Origin: Candidatus Hydrogenedentota bacterium
GTDB taxonomy: Bacteria; Hydrogenedentota; Hydrogenedentia; Hydrogenedentales; JAGMZX01
Direction: 5' to 3'
NCBI GenBank assembly: GCA_029556545.1
Contig: JAKQEQ010000181.1
Span: forward strand, 1 to 64,000
Length of the DNA stretch: 64,000 bases
Below the pieces are notes generated by a model that had not been told where the DNA came from, did not search any database, and was given only the letters and a program-made list of their open reading frames with translations. A program made the translations under genes and the position numbers. How positions within the stretch are numbered: position 1 is the first letter of the stretch; every line of letters starts with the position of its first letter. Below, one piece after another: positions 8,031-29,915 of the stretch.

Positions 8031-8065
8031 TGCGCTGATGGGCCGGAATGCGTATAGGACGTGAC

Positions 8066-8308
8066 GTGAACACCATTATCATTGACACGGAACGGTGCAA
8101 GGGCTGCTACCTGTGTATCGAGGCCTGCCCGAAAAATTGCATCGAACAGAACGGGCGGCCTAACGCCTCCGGCAATTATCCCGTCCAGTTTGTGCTGGCA
8201 TCGGAGTGTATCGCCTGCGCGTTGTGCGCACTGGTCTGTCCGGACGTCGCCATAACGGTTTTCCGGCACGTGAAAGAAGCGAAAACGGCCGACACGGCGA
8301 TGGCGTGA
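8066..8308 (+). CDS. 2-oxoacid:ferredoxin oxidoreductase, delta (4Fe-4S ferredoxin) subunit
   Basis: About 80 residues with two ferredoxin clusters: CKGCYLCIEACPKNC near the N-terminus and CIACALCALVCPD near the C-terminus. This is the KorD/VorD-type subunit that carries electrons from the TPP site to ferredoxin. The GTG at 8066 is chosen because AGGA lies about 7 nt upstream and family members start MNTIxID; an ATG at 8048 would add six residues. It is the first gene of a four-gene operon with the alpha gene 14 nt downstream. Confidence 0.88.
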   Translation: MNTIIIDTERCKGCYLCIEACPKNCIEQNGRPNASGNYPVQFVLASECIACALCALVCPDVAITVFRHVKEAKTADTAMA

Positions 8309-8322
8309 AAGGGTAACGGTTC

Positions 8323-9510
8323 GTGGGTGAGCGCGGGGGTAAACGAGTGCTCGAAAAGGGCAACGTCGCCATGGCCGAAGGGGCCGTGCAGGCGGGTTGC
8401 CGGTGTTATTTCGGGTATCCCATCACGCCGCAGAACGAAGTGCCGGAGTATCTGTCGAAACGCCTGCCCGAGGTCGGCGGGGTTTTCCTTCAAGCGGAGA
8501 GCGAAATCGCCAGCATCAATATGGTGCTTGGCGCCGTGTCGACGGGCGTGCGCGCCATGACGAGTTCGTCCAGTCCCGGCATATCGCTCATGCAGGAGGG
8601 AATTTCCTTCCTCGCGGGCAGCCAATTGCCGGCGCTTATCGTGAACGTACAACGCTGCGGCCCGGGGCTCGGCGGGATCAAGACGACCCAGGGCGATTAC
8701 TACCAGGCGACGCGCGGGGGCGGCCATGGCGACTATCGGACGCTCGTGCTTGCGCCGTGGTCCGTGCAGGAGATGTTCGATTTTCCGTTCCTGGCGTTCG
8801 AACTCGCCGAGAAGTATCGCAATCCCGTGCTGATGCTGCCGGATGCGGTGCTGGGCCAGATGAAGGACGCCGTGGTCATGACGCCGCCGGGTCCGATCAT
8901 AACCTACGAGAAGGATTATGTCCTCGACGGCGCGAAGGGCCGTCCCGCGCGCAATATCCGCAGTATGTATTTGGAGGACGACGACCAGGAATTGCTGAAT
9001 TACGCGCTGCGCACGAAGTACGAGATAATGGAAGCGAACGAACAGCGCCATGAGGAAACGGAGACCGACGACGCGGAGGTCGTGATCGTGGCGTATGGGA
9101 CCGCGGCGCGGCTTGCGCTGTCGGCGATGCAGCAGGCGCGTGAAGAAGGGCTGCGCGTGGGACTGTTCCGGCCCGTGACGCTGTGGCCGTTTCCAGCGAA
9201 GGCGCTGCGCGCGCTGGCGCGGCGCGTCAAACGCTTTCTGGTCGTCGAGATGAATCTCGGTCAGATGGTGGACGACGTCCGGGCCGTGCTCGGGCCGGAA
9301 GTCGAGGTGGACTTTTTCGGACGTCCGGGCGGCGGCATGCCCACGCCGCGTGAGATTCTCGCGCACCTCCACGGTCGCGGCGTCGACAAGGGCAACGAGT
9401 GGGCGGACAAGGTCGACGCGGCCGTGGACCACTACGTCTGGTGGCGCGAGGGCGTGCTCCAGCCCCGTGAAGTGAGCCCGGTCGGGCACAAGGGCGTTGC
9501 CGATGAGTAA
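8323..9510 (+). CDS. vorB: 3-methyl-2-oxobutanoate:ferredoxin oxidoreductase (VorB-type), alpha subunit
   Basis: 395 residues with the POR N-terminal fold. YPITPQNEVPEYL and FLQAESEIASINMVLGA are the typical opening motifs. The key GPGLGGIKTTQGDYYQATRG then GGGHGDYR is the VorB pattern, not the TGLPTKxEQ form of 2-oxoglutarate (KorA) enzymes, so a branched-chain 2-oxoacid substrate is more likely. The C-terminal half is the transketolase-C-like domain (LFRPVTLWPFP). With its partners it decarboxylates 2-oxoacids oxidatively to acyl-CoA, reducing ferredoxin. The start is GTG after AAGGG; the stop overlaps the beta gene. Confidence 0.88.
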   Translation: MGERGGKRVLEKGNVAMAEGAVQAGCRCYFGYPITPQNEVPEYLSKRLPEVGGVFLQAESEIASINMVLGAVSTGVRAMTSSSSPGISLMQEGISFLAGSQLPALIVNVQRCGPGLGGIKTTQGDYYQATRGGGHGDYRTLVLAPWSVQEMFDFPFLAFELAEKYRNPVLMLPDAVLGQMKDAVVMTPPGPIITYEKDYVLDGAKGRPARNIRSMYLEDDDQELLNYALRTKYEIMEANEQRHEETETDDAEVVIVAYGTAARLALSAMQQAREEGLRVGLFRPVTLWPFPAKALRALARRVKRFLVVEMNLGQMVDDVRAVLGPEVEVDFFGRPGGGMPTPREILAHLHGRGVDKGNEWADKVDAAVDHYVWWREGVLQPREVSPVGHKGVADE

Positions 9511-10321
9511 AGTGATCTTTGAACGTCCCCGTTACCTTTGCGACAAGGTGACGCACTACTGTGCGGGCTGCACCCACGGCACGGCGCATCGTCTGGTGGC
9601 TGAAGCGATCGAGCATTTCGGCGTGGGCGAAAAGGCGGTGGCAGTGGCGCCGGCCGGATGCAGCGTCATGCTTTACAAGTATTTTGACGTGGATTCCGTC
9701 GAGGCGCCGCACGGACGCGCGCTGGCCGTCGGCACGGGGATCAAGCGGGCGCGGCCCGACCTGTTTGTGTTCACGTATCAGGGCGACGGCGACCTCGCAA
9801 GCATCGGCCTGTGCGAGACGATGCATGCGGCGAATCGCGGAGAAGGGATCACGGTCATCTACGTAAACAACGCCGTCTACGGGATGACCGGCGGCCAGAT
9901 GGCGCCGACGACCCTGCTCGGGCAGCGCACGACCACGACGCCCGCGGGCCGGAAACACGACAACGAGGGACATCCGCTGAAGATGGCGGAGATGATGGCC
10001 ACACTCGAAGGCGTGCTGTACTCGGAACGGGTGGCGCTGTACGACCCGAAGCAGATACGCCGCGCGCGGAAAGCCATTTTCCACGCGTTCGAGGTCCAGA
10101 CAAAACATAACGGTTTCGGTTTTGTCGAGGTCCTGTCGGCCTGCCCGACGAATCTCCACCTCAGCCCGGTCCAATCGCAGAAGTGGGTCGAGAACGAGAT
10201 GTGCGCGGCGTTTCCCCTGGGCCTCTACAAGGATGTAACGGCGAAACCGCCCGAGCTGCCCGCGGCGACGCCGGAGGCGGAAGTCAACGGCGTAAGTCAG
10301 GGCACTTGCCATGCTGTTTGA
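9503..10321 (+). CDS. 2-oxoacid:ferredoxin oxidoreductase, TPP-binding beta subunit
   Basis: 272 residues. The TPP/Mg2+ site is plain: YQGDGDLASIGL (GDG) followed about 28 residues later by VNNAVYGMTGGQMAPTT. An N-terminal YCAGCTHG is the family CxGC motif. It forms the catalytic core with the alpha subunit. The start ATG overlaps the alpha stop by 8 nt (translational coupling). The stop in turn lies inside the start of the gamma gene. KorB/VorA-type; substrate range is inferred from the alpha subunit. Confidence 0.9.
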   Translation: MSKVIFERPRYLCDKVTHYCAGCTHGTAHRLVAEAIEHFGVGEKAVAVAPAGCSVMLYKYFDVDSVEAPHGRALAVGTGIKRARPDLFVFTYQGDGDLASIGLCETMHAANRGEGITVIYVNNAVYGMTGGQMAPTTLLGQRTTTTPAGRKHDNEGHPLKMAEMMATLEGVLYSERVALYDPKQIRRARKAIFHAFEVQTKHNGFGFVEVLSACPTNLHLSPVQSQKWVENEMCAAFPLGLYKDVTAKPPELPAATPEAEVNGVSQGTCHAV

Positions 10322-10853
10322 GTTCATGACGGCGGGGTTCGGAGGGCAAGGCATTCTCTACCTGGGCGATGTACTCGCCGGCGCCGCGCTTCGCGAGGGA
10401 CGCAACGCCACCTTCCTGCCCACCTATGGCGCGGCCATGCGCGGCGGTACGGCCAATTGCGTCGTCATTATTTCGGATAAAGCCATCGGCGCGATGACGC
10501 TCGACCAGCCCCATGCGGCGGTGTTGATGAACCAGCCCTCCTTCGAGAAGTTCCAGGCCGTGCTGCGGCCCGGCGGTCTCATCGTCGCCAACACGAGCCT
10601 TGTCGATCCATCGTCGCTGCGGCGAACCGACCTGCGCGTGGTGTGGATTCCCGCCACACAGATTTCCAAGGACGTCGTGGGGACCGAACGTTCGGCCAAC
10701 ATCGTGGCGCTCGGGGCCTTGCTGAAGGCGGAGCCCATCGTGGAAACGGCAACCATCGAGGCCATCTTCCGCGATGGGGCCACAGGCAAGCGCCGCGCCA
10801 TGCTCGACAAGAATCTCGCGGCGCTCCGGGCCGGACTCGACTTTCAGGACTGA
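10311..10853 (+). CDS. 2-oxoacid:ferredoxin oxidoreductase, gamma subunit
   Basis: 180 residues of the POR gamma family. GFGGQGILYLGDVLA near the N-terminus and PTYGAAMRGGTANCVVIIS are the conserved CoA-side motifs. It overlaps the beta gene by 11 nt and ends the VOR operon, whose order is delta-alpha-beta-gamma. Only 33 nt separate its stop from the stop of the convergent ACT gene; no clear hairpin lies there. Confidence 0.9.
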   Translation: MLFEFMTAGFGGQGILYLGDVLAGAALREGRNATFLPTYGAAMRGGTANCVVIISDKAIGAMTLDQPHAAVLMNQPSFEKFQAVLRPGGLIVANTSLVDPSSLRRTDLRVVWIPATQISKDVVGTERSANIVALGALLKAEPIVETATIEAIFRDGATGKRRAMLDKNLAALRAGLDFQD

Positions 10854-10886: not shown

Positions 10887-11372
10887 TCATAGGCCGATAA
10901 CGGAATACACGATGTCTGTGACCACGCCTCCTTTTTCGAGCCGTTCGAGGACGGGGTCGAGTTCGCTCGGGGAGCCGGCGAGGAAATAGGTCCAGGTCTG
11001 GCCGTTCGCCTCGACGAGTTCGCACGTGAGGAAGGTCTGGTCCCCGGCGACATCATGGGGGGCGAGACGTCTGTTTGCGGTGATTATTGCTGATTTGCGT
11101 AGGTTTTGAGAGTTATATGGATGTTCTTCGAGGCCCGTTACCTTGCTCAGCCGCCGCACTTTGCGGACCATGACGTCCTTCTCGCGCTCGTTGCACCAGA
11201 AGGTCATGACGACGCTGCCGTCCACGCCAGCGTGCGCTTCGAGTCCATGACCGACGACGGTGTCGATGCTGATGCCTTCGTTGCTGAAAGCGGAGGCGAT
11301 GCTGGTGAGGGCTCCCGCGCGGTCCAGGACGTGCGCGCGGAAAACCCAGTGCCGTTTTCCGGTATCAGTCAT
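10887..11372 (-). CDS. ACT-domain protein next to Ptb-Buk fusion
   Basis: 161 residues. Residues about 8-80 form an ACT domain (VLDRAGALTSIASAFSNEGI, like the IlvH small subunit), and a second, weaker ACT-like fold fills the C-terminal half. ACT domains bind amino acids and regulate enzymes of their metabolism. AAGGAGGG 9 nt before the ATG is a strong ribosome site. The gene overlaps the end of ptb-buk by 8 nt, so the two are translated from one mRNA. I infer, without proof, that it senses a branched-chain amino acid or regulates the fused enzyme or its operon. Confidence 0.75.
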   Translation of the reverse strand: MTDTGKRHWVFRAHVLDRAGALTSIASAFSNEGISIDTVVGHGLEAHAGVDGSVVMTFWCNEREKDVMVRKVRRLSKVTGLEEHPYNSQNLRKSAIITANRRLAPHDVAGDQTFLTCELVEANGQTWTYFLAGSPSELDPVLERLEKGGVVTDIVYSVIGL

Positions 11373-13506
11373 GACGGGTCCCTCCTTCCGCGGCGTGGTT
11401 GGGCTGTTCCCAGAGATATCGGTGAGGCGGGGAACCGGCGGTCAACGCGCCGAGGGCTCCCGCGGCGAGCGCTTCCATTTCGAGCGGCTGGTCGAAGATC
11501 AGTATAGGGGCGAGTTTCCCGACCCGTCTCCGAAGCTCGTTGCGGATACGTTCGGACCGAATCATGCCGCCGGTGAGCACAATGGCCTCGATATCGCAGC
11601 CGGCGGCGGCGAACATGGCGCCGATTTCCTTGGCGATCTGGTAGGTCATTGCGTCCACGATCAGGCGTGCGTATTCGTTGCCGGCGCGGATTTGATCCTC
11701 GATCACGTCGAGTCGGTATTCGCCGAGGTACGATTGGAGTCCGCCCCGCGTGGTGAGTTCTTCGAGGAGTTCCTCGCGCGTGAACCGTCCGCTGAAACAC
11801 AGATCGATCAATTCGGCCGTAGGCAGTTGACCGGCCCGCTGGGGCGTGAAGGGCCCGCCGCCGAGAAGCGCGATGTTGCTGTCCACCATCCTGCCGTTGC
11901 GCACTGCGGTGACGGAAACGCCCCCGCCGAGATGGGCGACGACAAGATGAACGTCTTTGACGGGTCTTCCCATGATTTCCGCGGCTTTGCGGATGCCTGC
12001 GCGGATGCTCAATGCGTGTGAGATGTTGCGTCGGACGATTCCGTTGTATCCCGAGATTTCCGCCTCGGGGAGGAACTCGTCGACGACCACGGGGTCGACG
12101 AAGTACGCCGGGGCCGTGAGCGCCCTGGCCAGGACGGCGGCGACGGGAATGCCCAAGTTGCTTGCATGCTGTTTTTCGGGATGTTCGAGCACCGCGAACA
12201 TGAGCGATTCATTGACGACCACGTCGCCGTCCTGGAGTTCCGCGATGACATAGGCGCCGCCGGACAGCTTCTCCGGCGGGCGGGGCACGAAGCCGCCTCG
12301 GGCGGCGATTGCGTCCACGGATTGCCAACTGGCGGCATGGAGGAGTTGCAGGACGCGCTGCGCCAGTTCGTCGGCTTGGTTTCGCCGTTCCTCGATCGTG
12401 CCGGCGGCGGGGATCATGTATTCCGATTCGAGATGCCGAACGCAGTCTTCATTTTCAAAGAGGGCGATCTTCGTGGACGTGGAGCCGGGATTGACGGCCA
12501 CGACGCGATAGGTCCTTGTCCGGGCGGGCCCGGGCGCTCTTCGTGGCTTGGTCTGTTCTTCGGAAAACCGCTGGGCGTAAATGGCGCCGAGCGCCACGGA
12601 ATTGAGCCGCGTTTCAAGGGCGTCGGACCGGGAAAGGAGTACATACGGCTGGGGGAAACCCATGATTATGTTGGCGAGCGAGGCCTCGCCGTACTTGATC
12701 AGTGCGCTCACCATCTTATAGATGACGTTGCCGGTGTCGATCCCTGGGCAAACCAGAATATCGGCGCGTCCGCCCACTTCGCGCGCGCCCGGCGCATCGG
12801 GGAGTCCCTTGGACGCGACGGCGCCGGGATCCGTGGCCAGGTCCAGAGACAGCGGGCCGTAAACGATCGCGTCGGGCCATCCCCGGCGTGCGAACTCCGC
12901 GCCGAGCTGCGTTGACGGGAGCGTGGGCAGGATTTTCTCGTTTGCAGACAAGAGAGCCACGCGCGGTGTCTCGATTCCCATGACGCTGCGCGCGACATCG
13001 ACCGCGTTTCGGATGAGCCCGGCGATTCGGGCATAGGTGCAGACGGTGGTAACGCCGGCATCCGTGAGGATCATCGGGCGTCCGTTCGCGATGGGGGCGG
13101 CGTCGAAGATGGATACGAGACTGACGGTGGGGCGCACGGCCAGGGGAAGCATGTGGCGATGCAGGACATGGGTGGGCGTGCTCCCCTTGAGGACCATTTG
13201 CACGACCCCGGTCTTGACGAGCGCGACGGTGGCGGCAGCGGCCTCCTCCTCACCGTCGGCGGCGAGAATGTCTTTTTCGGGTACGTCGATTCCGACTTTG
13301 GCGACGGCCTCGGCGATACGCTGCTTCTTGCCGACGAGCACGATGCGATCAATGATCCCATGATCGCGGGCGGACTCGACAAGGAGCAGGTCTTCGACCC
13401 GTTCGCCGCCTGCCATGACCGCCGCCAAGGGGCGCAGCGAGCCGGCGATCTGGACGAGATCGACTACCCTTTCAAATCCTTTGCGTTCGGATGCGCTTGC
13501 GGTCAT
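11365..13506 (-). CDS. ptb-buk: Bifunctional phosphate butyryltransferase / butyrate kinase (Ptb-Buk fusion)
   Basis: 713 residues in one uninterrupted frame. Residues 1-315 are a phosphate acyltransferase of the Ptb type (VLKGSTPTHVLHRHML, ILTDAGVTTVCTYAR, ADILVCPGIDTGN, ending VLLSRSDALETRLNSVALG). After a short Pro/Arg linker (316-332), residues 333-713 are an acetate/butyrate kinase of the ASKHA fold. This part has VVAVNPGSTSTKIALF (phosphate loop), RNISHALSIRAG, VVAHLGGGVSVTAV and VLTGGMIRS. The two reactions turn acyl-CoA plus Pi into acyl-phosphate, then make ATP and free acid. The enzymes are usually separate genes (ptb, buk). Opposite VOR, the likely substrates are isobutyryl-, isovaleryl- or 2-methylbutyryl-CoA. 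Confidence 0.93.
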   Translation of the reverse strand: MTASASERKGFERVVDLVQIAGSLRPLAAVMAGGERVEDLLLVESARDHGIIDRIVLVGKKQRIAEAVAKVGIDVPEKDILAADGEEEAAAATVALVKTGVVQMVLKGSTPTHVLHRHMLPLAVRPTVSLVSIFDAAPIANGRPMILTDAGVTTVCTYARIAGLIRNAVDVARSVMGIETPRVALLSANEKILPTLPSTQLGAEFARRGWPDAIVYGPLSLDLATDPGAVASKGLPDAPGAREVGGRADILVCPGIDTGNVIYKMVSALIKYGEASLANIIMGFPQPYVLLSRSDALETRLNSVALGAIYAQRFSEEQTKPRRAPGPARTRTYRVVAVNPGSTSTKIALFENEDCVRHLESEYMIPAAGTIEERRNQADELAQRVLQLLHAASWQSVDAIAARGGFVPRPPEKLSGGAYVIAELQDGDVVVNESLMFAVLEHPEKQHASNLGIPVAAVLARALTAPAYFVDPVVVDEFLPEAEISGYNGIVRRNISHALSIRAGIRKAAEIMGRPVKDVHLVVAHLGGGVSVTAVRNGRMVDSNIALLGGGPFTPQRAGQLPTAELIDLCFSGRFTREELLEELTTRGGLQSYLGEYRLDVIEDQIRAGNEYARLIVDAMTYQIAKEIGAMFAAAGCDIEAIVLTGGMIRSERIRNELRRRVGKLAPILIFDQPLEMEALAAGALGALTAGSPPHRYLWEQPNHAAEGGTRHD

Positions 13507-28724: not shown

Positions 28725-29915
28725 ATGTTTGAACAACTCGAAATGGCGCCGCCGGACGCAATTCTGGGTTTGACTGAGGCATTCAAGAAGGACCCGAAAC
28801 CGAACAAGATCAACCTCGGCGTAGGAGTCTACAAGGACGCGCAGGGCGGCACGCCGGTGCTCGAGTGCGTCAAACAGGCGGAACAGCGGCTCCTCGAGGA
28901 CGAGAAGAGCAAGAGCTACCTGCCTATCCCCGGCGCGCCGGAGTACGGCATCGAGGTGCGCACGTTGCTCTTCGGCGCGGCCCACGAACTCGTCGCGGGC
29001 GGGGCCGCGGTGACGGCGCACACGCCGGGCGGGACGGGCGCGCTGCGCGTGGCGGCCGATTTCATCAAGCGTTGCAACCCCGCGGCTCGGGTGTGGCTGA
29101 GCGATCCGACTTGGGAAAATCACGCGGCGGTCTTCAACGCGGCGGGGATCGAGACGAAGGCTTATCCATATTACGATCAATCGGGGAAACGCCTGGCGTT
29201 CGACGCCATGACCGACGCGCTTTCGCGCGTTCCGGAGGGGGACGTGGTCCTGTTACATGCGTGCTGTCACAATCCGAGCGGCATGGACCTCGATGCGGAG
29301 CAGTGGCGCGAAGTGGCCCGATTGGCCGGGCAGCGGCACTTTCTGCCCCTGGTGGATTTCGCGTATCAGGGATTGGCCGAAGGACTCGAAGAGGATGCGG
29401 CCGGCGTTCGCGCGCTATATCGGGCCGGTTTCGAGATGGTCGTGTGCAGTTCGTTTTCGAAGAACTTCGGGCTCTATAACGAGCGCGTGGGCGCGCTCAC
29501 GATTGTCGGCGGCGACGCGACCGCCGCCGAGAAGGCGTTCAGCCATATCAAGCGGTGCATCCGCACGAATTATTCGAATCCGCCCGCGCACGGCGGCCAG
29601 ATCGTGTTAACCGTACTGAGGAACCCGGAATTGCGGGGTCTGTGGGCGCGGGAGGTCGCGGCGATGCGCGACCGGATTAACGGTATGCGGGCGTTGTTTG
29701 TCAAGACCCTCAAGGCGAAAGGCATCAAAGAGGACTTCTCTTTCATTACACGCCAACGGGGCATGTTCTCGTTCTCGGGCCTCAGCCGCGAGCAGGTCGC
29801 GCTTCTGCGGGACGAGTACGCTATCTATATCGTCGGTTCCGGCCGCATCAACGTCGCTGGCATGACGGAAGGCAACATGGACCGGCTCTGCGAGGCCATC
29901 GCGAGCGTGCTGTAG
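28725..29915 (+). CDS. aspC: Aspartate/aromatic amino-acid aminotransferase
   Basis: 396 residues of class I. NKINLGVGVYKDAQGGTPVL is the N-terminal signature of the Ib-type aspartate/tyrosine aminotransferases. HTPGGTGALRVAADF binds PLP. LLHACCHNPSGMDL and VDFAYQGLAEGLEEDA follow. VVCSSFSKNFGLYNERVGAL holds the PLP Lys. The C-terminal GSGRINVAGM has the substrate-binding Arg. AspC and TyrB cannot be separated by eye. It is convergent with the anti-sigma gene (6 nt gap). Confidence 0.94.
   Translation: MFEQLEMAPPDAILGLTEAFKKDPKPNKINLGVGVYKDAQGGTPVLECVKQAEQRLLEDEKSKSYLPIPGAPEYGIEVRTLLFGAAHELVAGGAAVTAHTPGGTGALRVAADFIKRCNPAARVWLSDPTWENHAAVFNAAGIETKAYPYYDQSGKRLAFDAMTDALSRVPEGDVVLLHACCHNPSGMDLDAEQWREVARLAGQRHFLPLVDFAYQGLAEGLEEDAAGVRALYRAGFEMVVCSSFSKNFGLYNERVGALTIVGGDATAAEKAFSHIKRCIRTNYSNPPAHGGQIVLTVLRNPELRGLWAREVAAMRDRINGMRALFVKTLKAKGIKEDFSFITRQRGMFSFSGLSREQVALLRDEYAIYIVGSGRINVAGMTEGNMDRLCEAIASVL

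Follow-up and report, generated by a model that had tools for sequence, protein, structure and literature searches.

A predicted single-chain fusion of a Ptb-like phosphate acyltransferase with butyrate kinase, linked to an ACT-domain gene, in Hydrogenedentota

Results

A Ptb-like domain and a butyrate kinase domain are encoded in one frame

One gene of a Candidatus Hydrogenedentota bacterium encodes a Ptb-type phosphate acyltransferase domain and a butyrate kinase (Buk) domain in a single polypeptide, and the same arrangement is conserved in other genomes of the phylum. The gene lies within a stretch of 64,000 nucleotides, referred to here as the window (contig C151:1-64000 of genome G000; 6.1 Mb, 96% complete). 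It is read from 13506 to 11365 on the minus strand, which the preliminary description had not given, and the unbroken frame of 713 codons reported there is indeed uninterrupted from ATG to TGA. Each of the other reading frames over this DNA contains 2-28 stops, and there is no step in GC or GC3 at the fusion junction. Pfam analysis of the protein revealed PTA_PTB (E=2.8e-23, residues 89-307) and Acetate_kinase (E=1.7e-18), and the Pfam, NCBIfam and PDB relatives of both halves agree with the earlier view of Ptb and Buk in a single chain. Both domains proposed at that time are present, and their extents, given as residues 1-315 and 333-713, were refined to those in Table 1; the Pro/Arg linker of 17 residues was found as described, with a length of about 17-19 residues.

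Table 1. Features of the fusion locus (window coordinates) and of further loci (locus:coordinates)
Feature	Location	Strand	Basis or source
Ferredoxin subunit of VorDBAC-type 2-oxoacid:ferredoxin oxidoreductase	8048-8308	plus	Family searches
VorB	8323-9510	plus	Family searches
VorA (TPP)	9497-10321	plus	Family searches
VorC	10311-10853	plus	Family searches
ACT-domain gene, 161 aa	10887..11372	minus	Directly downstream of fusion; ATG overlaps fusion TGA by 8 nt
ptb-buk fusion gene, 713 aa	11365..13506	minus	ATG 13506-13504, TGA 11367-11365; ORF and family searches
Shine-Dalgarno-like AAGGAGG	11387-11381		Within 3' end of fusion
Butyrate kinase (ASKHA) domain (residues 333-700)	11407..12510	minus	TIGR02707 score and conserved columns
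Variable Pro/Arg-rich linker (residues 314-332)	12511..12567	minus	Length and sequence differ among 10 fusions
Ptb-type phosphate acyltransferase domain (residues 12-313)	12568..13473	minus	AlphaFold fold match and residue conservation
Aromatic amino acid transaminase	28725-29915	plus	PRK09257, 584 bits
Pta-type-Buk fusion	L080:104-2551	minus	Calditrichota-group sample
Pta-type-Buk fusion	L082:2411-4684	plus	Calditrichota-group sample
Pta-type-Buk fusion	L083:1394-3682	plus	Calditrichota-group sample
Pta-type-Buk fusion	L084:2249-4543	plus	Calditrichota-group sample
Pta-type-Buk fusion	L085:2674-4920	plus	Calditrichota-group sample
Pta-type-Buk fusion	L073:2820-5024	minus	Desulfobacterota-group genome
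Tandem Ptb-like pair upstream of buk	L009:5926-7777		One copy without Ser-Arg motif
Tandem Ptb-like pair upstream of buk	L075:3866-5723		One copy without Ser-Arg motif
Tandem Ptb-like pair upstream of buk	L076:3521-5362		One copy without Ser-Arg motif
Tandem Ptb-like pair upstream of buk	L079:1445-3221		One copy without Ser-Arg motif

The fusion is conserved in four families of the phylum

All genomes of a set of 68 from Hydrogenedentota were searched, and a full-length fusion in one stop-free frame was found in 10 of them (63-81% identity), representing four families within the phylum (f1, f4, f9 and f10). A full-length relative (74% identity) is also present in record DSBB01000210.1 of Ca. 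Hydrogenedentota SpSt-1162 (6,305 bp), the matches of which are the same as those of a contig from G051. The aligned junction falls at the identical place in all 10 fusions, with linkers that vary in length and sequence, and each domain forms one clade with a support of 100 in the Ptb and Buk trees, respectively. As the fusion occurs in full length in 10 assemblies and in DSBB01000210.1, it is due neither to chance nor to an assembly join. The preliminary description had named a misassembly of two open reading frames as what would speak against a fusion; such an artefact, or one caused by a frameshift, is practically inconceivable with the same junction and no internal stop in 10 assemblies of this divergence, and nothing was found in its favor. 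No relatives of the fusion were encountered among viral contigs, and the best places listed for plasmids had separate buk and acyltransferase features or were without listed annotation.

Nei-Gojobori estimates for five fusion pairs gave dN/dS values of 0.06-0.11 for the Ptb domain and of 0.13-0.16 for the Buk domain, compared with 0.36-0.86 for the linker (15-19 codons) in the three pairs where it could be estimated, the other two being saturated. Both domains are therefore maintained under strong purifying selection, and the tether between them is not.

The C-terminal half is a butyrate kinase by family score

For the C-terminal half a score of 310.6 bits was obtained with the butyrate kinase model TIGR02707, above its equivalog cut-off of 289.1 bits, and the fusions at L043 and L046 likewise exceeded this cut-off. 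PDB relatives of residues 333-700 are structures of butyrate kinase 2 (1x9j/1saz), and the domain displays the motifs NPGSTSTK, RGG, HASNLG, DPVVVDE, HLGGG, GPFTPxR and TGGM, as well as E676. Of the 63 alignment columns with a conservation of 90% or more among standalone Buk, 45 are kept in all fusions. Eight kinase-motif residues (N339, R403, H447, D471, H497, H525, R557 and E676) are invariant in the 10 fusions and, with the exception of R403, near-invariant in standalone Buk.

The N-terminal half has a Ptb fold and lineage-specific changes

The N-terminal half reached 83.2 bits with PTA_PTB (PF01515; gathering score 24). It stayed below the equivalog cut-offs for phosphate butyryltransferase (TIGR02706; 159.7 versus 410.5 bits) and for branched-chain phosphotransacylase (TIGR02709; 113.1 versus 475.15 bits) and, because the TIGR02706 cut-off was missed, we call this half Ptb-like. 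A sequence search identified Ptb of C. acetobutylicum (7vg9) as the PDB relative of residues 22-311, and the AlphaFold model of residues 1-320 (pLDDT 94, pTM 0.92) also had its best fold match in 7vg9 (TM 0.84-0.85 / 0.88-0.90). The residues S292-R293-x-D295, N260, K264, T148-D149 and E190 are kept in all 10 fusions, and the two characteristics of the catalytic family, a Ser-Arg CoA/acyl-phosphate site (S292-R293) and the Ptb fold, are both present.

At position 156 the fusions have Cys, in contrast to Pro in 30 of 30 standalone homologues; an aliphatic residue replaces the Lys found at position 161 in 29 of 30, and Gly replaces the Ala found at position 202 in 28 of 30. The loop following R117 is shorter in the fusions by about five residues, and the stem of the fusion Ptb clade amounts to about 2.3 substitutions per site. 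Since the Ptb half has diverged at family-invariant sites and lies below the cut-off, its substrate specificity cannot be read from the family name. From the initial designation as phosphate butyryltransferase we retain the Ptb-family fold, which is clear, and drop the butyryl identity, the substrate being uncertain.

In addition to the fusion, four of these genomes (G038, G060, G051 and G043) contain a Ptb as a separate protein that is far more typical of the family (L047, L048, L049 and L050); two of these were scored with TIGR02706 and reached 310-321 bits. No standalone Buk was detected in any of the four.

An ACT-domain gene accompanies the fusion

The ACT-domain gene that overlaps the end of the fusion gene (Table 1) adjoins it in all nine genomes in which the contig continues past the fusion. 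In the tenth, G060, the contig stops about 20 nt beyond the fusion stop, and a search for the ACT gene elsewhere in this genome did not find it. The gene was not detected in any of the 58 phylum genomes without the fusion and is present in nine of the 68 genomes, all of them with the fusion. Identities among the ACT proteins of different genomes (76-88%) are higher than those among the fusions. The ACT protein shows a weak collinear resemblance to the acetolactate synthase small subunit (IlvH/N); the scores of the G009 orthologue lie below the respective cut-offs (TIGR00119, 17.2 versus 56.9 bits; NF008864, 19.3 versus 119 bits), and E=0.52 was obtained with structure 2pc6. Gene order around the fusion-ACT pair differs in two other loci examined, where neighbors include Fic, GH38 and TyrRS genes. 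Beside the ACT gene no catalytic partner is apparent except the fusion. The ACT protein is probably an amino-acid sensor with a regulatory effect on the fusion protein or on the pathway to which this belongs. We know of no regulatory layer of this kind for Ptb-Buk, and among our observations the linkage to ACT was the least expected.

A 2-oxoacid:ferredoxin oxidoreductase co-occurs with the fusion

The genes for a VorDBAC-type enzyme (8048..10853, plus strand) are arranged tail-to-tail with the ACT gene and do not belong to its operon. Vor adjoins the fusion locus in two genomes, G000 and its congener G001, and only in the window's genus. Nine of the 10 fusion genomes have VorB versus six of the 58 others (hypergeometric 9e-7, with phylogeny ignored); it was not found in G051, which is 82% complete. 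An aromatic amino acid transaminase is encoded elsewhere in the window and is a possible source of 2-oxoacid for Vor.

Full-length AckA is encoded in 26 of the 58 genomes without the fusion versus one of the 10 with it (Fisher p=0.04, confounded by phylogeny), and many of the phylum's genomes have neither AckA nor the fusion. A query comprising both domains hit nothing but the fusion in G000 (E<=1e-3), and no further Pta/Ptb or acetate/butyrate kinase was detectable, PduL, an unrelated family, lying outside this search; true AckA was readily detected in relatives. The one fusion genome with AckA is G060 (L046, L097), which is also the only f4 genome with the fusion. Its VorBAC is 76-87% identical to that of the window, although of all fusions the one in G060 has diverged furthest (63-64%); on these identities, its Vor may have been acquired horizontally.

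A second acyltransferase-Buk architecture occurs outside the phylum

We sampled genomes around named relatives, comprising 247 of a Deltaproteobacteria group (called Desulfobacterota here), 348 of a Clostridia group, 345 of an Ignavibacteriales/Bacteroidota group, 82 of a Calditrichota group and eight of one more group, the groups being named after the titles of records among their genomes. In the large samples 3-4 candidates per genome were scored among the matches listed, so that further fusions may be missed and the fusion counts are lower bounds. Most of the matches that we checked have distinct genes for ptb and buk. A different arrangement, with an N-terminal Pta-type acyltransferase and a C-terminal Buk in one frame of 735-816 codons, was found at no fewer than five Calditrichota-group loci and at least one Desulfobacterota-group locus. 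The N-terminal domain of these fusions lies on a different branch from the Hydrogenedentota Ptb half (100 support), and a sister relationship between Hydrogenedentota Buk and the Buk domains of the Calditrichota group was rejected (p-AU 0.042). On the basis of these trees, an acyltransferase-Buk fusion most likely arose at least twice.

Some candidates were rejected. Pta-AckA fusions suspected in relatives proved to be two separate genes according to the frames at the loci checked, and the long stop-free Buk frames of G189, G237, G543, G337, G1026, G1027, G1032 and G1093 did not represent fusions, ptb and buk being separate. Four loci have tandem Ptb-like pairs upstream of buk (Table 1); the absence of the Ser-Arg motif from one copy suggests a heteromeric or regulatory Ptb partner.

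Discussion

We consider it reasonably probable, from domain content and genomic context, that the fusion protein is a bifunctional enzyme converting acyl-CoA via acyl-phosphate to acid and ATP, probably in the fermentation of branched-chain 2-oxoacids. We infer both activities, the substrate, the direction and the role of ACT. The Ptb-type domain would convert a short, most likely branched, acyl-CoA and phosphate to acyl-phosphate and CoA, and the Buk domain would transfer the phosphate to ADP, yielding the free acid and one ATP; judged from the families, both steps would be reversible. Amino acids with branched (or aromatic) side chains would be the source of the acyl-CoA, delivered by the neighboring ferredoxin-dependent Vor, and the product of the overlapping ACT gene would act as amino-acid sensor regulating the fusion or the pathway. 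As no enzyme other than the fusion was detectable for either step in G000, it is probably the acyl-phosphate route of substrate-level phosphorylation in this organism, and the Vor association together with the ACT partner favors 2-oxoacids from amino-acid breakdown. There is a precedent in Cloacimonadota, for which a branched-chain 2-oxoacid route through individual Vor, Ptb and Buk enzymes was proposed by genome inference (PMC8542988). Speaking against our reading are the distance of the Ptb half from characterized enzymes and the situation of Vor, which adjoins the locus in a single genus, is convergent with the ACT gene and, as far as VorB is concerned, was not found in G051.

Other readings of the same protein have to be weighed. 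The enzyme could be bifunctional and use acetyl-CoA, propionyl-CoA or another acyl-CoA, replacing Pta-AckA as a general acid-forming ATP step, for which the diverged pocket region of Ptb and the distribution of AckA, confounded by phylogeny as it is, could be cited. However, the Buk domain lies above the butyrate kinase equivalog cut-off, many genomes have neither route, and the co-occurrence with Vor indicates longer acyl groups, so that we regard such a substrate as unlikely. The main structural rival is a MaeB-like role, in which the Ptb domain would sense acyl-CoA and regulate a kinase that alone is catalytic. In MaeB, a malic enzyme, a C-terminal Pta-like domain has been reported to be without Pta activity (PMC4522649), and this precedent shares with our protein a PTA_PTB-family domain fused to another enzyme; MaeB PTA structures are among the fold matches, the stem of the Ptb clade is long, and Pro156 and Lys161 are changed at near-invariant positions. 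In contrast to MaeB, the domain is N-terminal in Hydrogenedentota and retains Ser-Arg and the other landmarks in every fusion, its closest fold is a catalytic Ptb and not MaeB, and G000 has, PduL being outside the search, no other detectable Pta/Ptb to make acyl-phosphate. A purely regulatory Ptb half appears to us improbable.

Channeling, as suggested in the preliminary description, would pass the labile acyl-phosphate from one active site directly to the other; it would add to the bifunctional reading and is compatible with it. Consecutive enzymes in one chain, and the separate Pta-type-Buk fusion in another lineage, which suggests a recurring advantage, speak for channeling, but the short linker differs among the fusions and is under little constraint, co-expression and stoichiometry account equally well for a fusion, and the full-length AlphaFold model, for which only 10 close sequences were aligned, is of low confidence (pLDDT 59, pTM 0.45) and too poor to show a tunnel or an interface. 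We therefore hold channeling to be doubtful. Rather unlikely, in our estimation, is a single-chain, ACT-gated acyl-CoA-to-ATP synthase, in which acyl-phosphate would pass between the sites and a dedicated ACT sensor of amino acids would turn an energy-yielding step of their fermentation on or off.

In Clostridium, Enterococcus and Listeria, ptb-buk operons encode two individual proteins (Ptb 7vg9, Buk2 1x9j) of the same families, with the same catalytic landmarks, for adjacent steps, whereas the Hydrogenedentota form is one polypeptide with Ptb first, a divergent Ptb half and an appended ACT gene. The bkd operon of Enterococcus, which combines a branched-chain phosphotransacylase (structure 1yco) with Buk and a 2-oxoacid dehydrogenase, likely follows the same logic from branched-chain 2-oxoacid via acyl-CoA and acyl-phosphate to acid and ATP. 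Its enzymes are separate, unlike the fused enzyme of Hydrogenedentota, which has a ferredoxin-dependent Vor nearby and scores 113 versus 475 bits with TIGR02709. The Pta-type-Buk fusions resemble our protein in their one frame, N-terminal acyltransferase and C-terminal Buk, and differ in having a Pta-type and not a Ptb-type N-domain, probably reflecting a separate origin; an acyltransferase-Buk fusion as such is thus not unique to Hydrogenedentota. We found no description of a natural Ptb-Buk or Pta-Buk fusion in the literature searched, subscription papers and database annotations being mostly beyond reach, and within this literature the initial impression that none had been described holds. 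Neither the components nor the joining of consecutive enzymes as a principle is new; the natural single-chain form appears to be undescribed.

Ptb and Buk serve as models of how acids are formed and, in biotechnology, of how this is reversed, and the literature found treats them as two proteins. A conserved natural single-chain form offers a direct way into the question of acyl-phosphate channeling and a ready-made fused tool for the interconversion of acids and acyl-CoA, and the accompanying ACT gene hints at an additional level of regulation of Ptb-Buk. For the uncultured Hydrogenedentota, the fusion provides a first hint of how they may make ATP.
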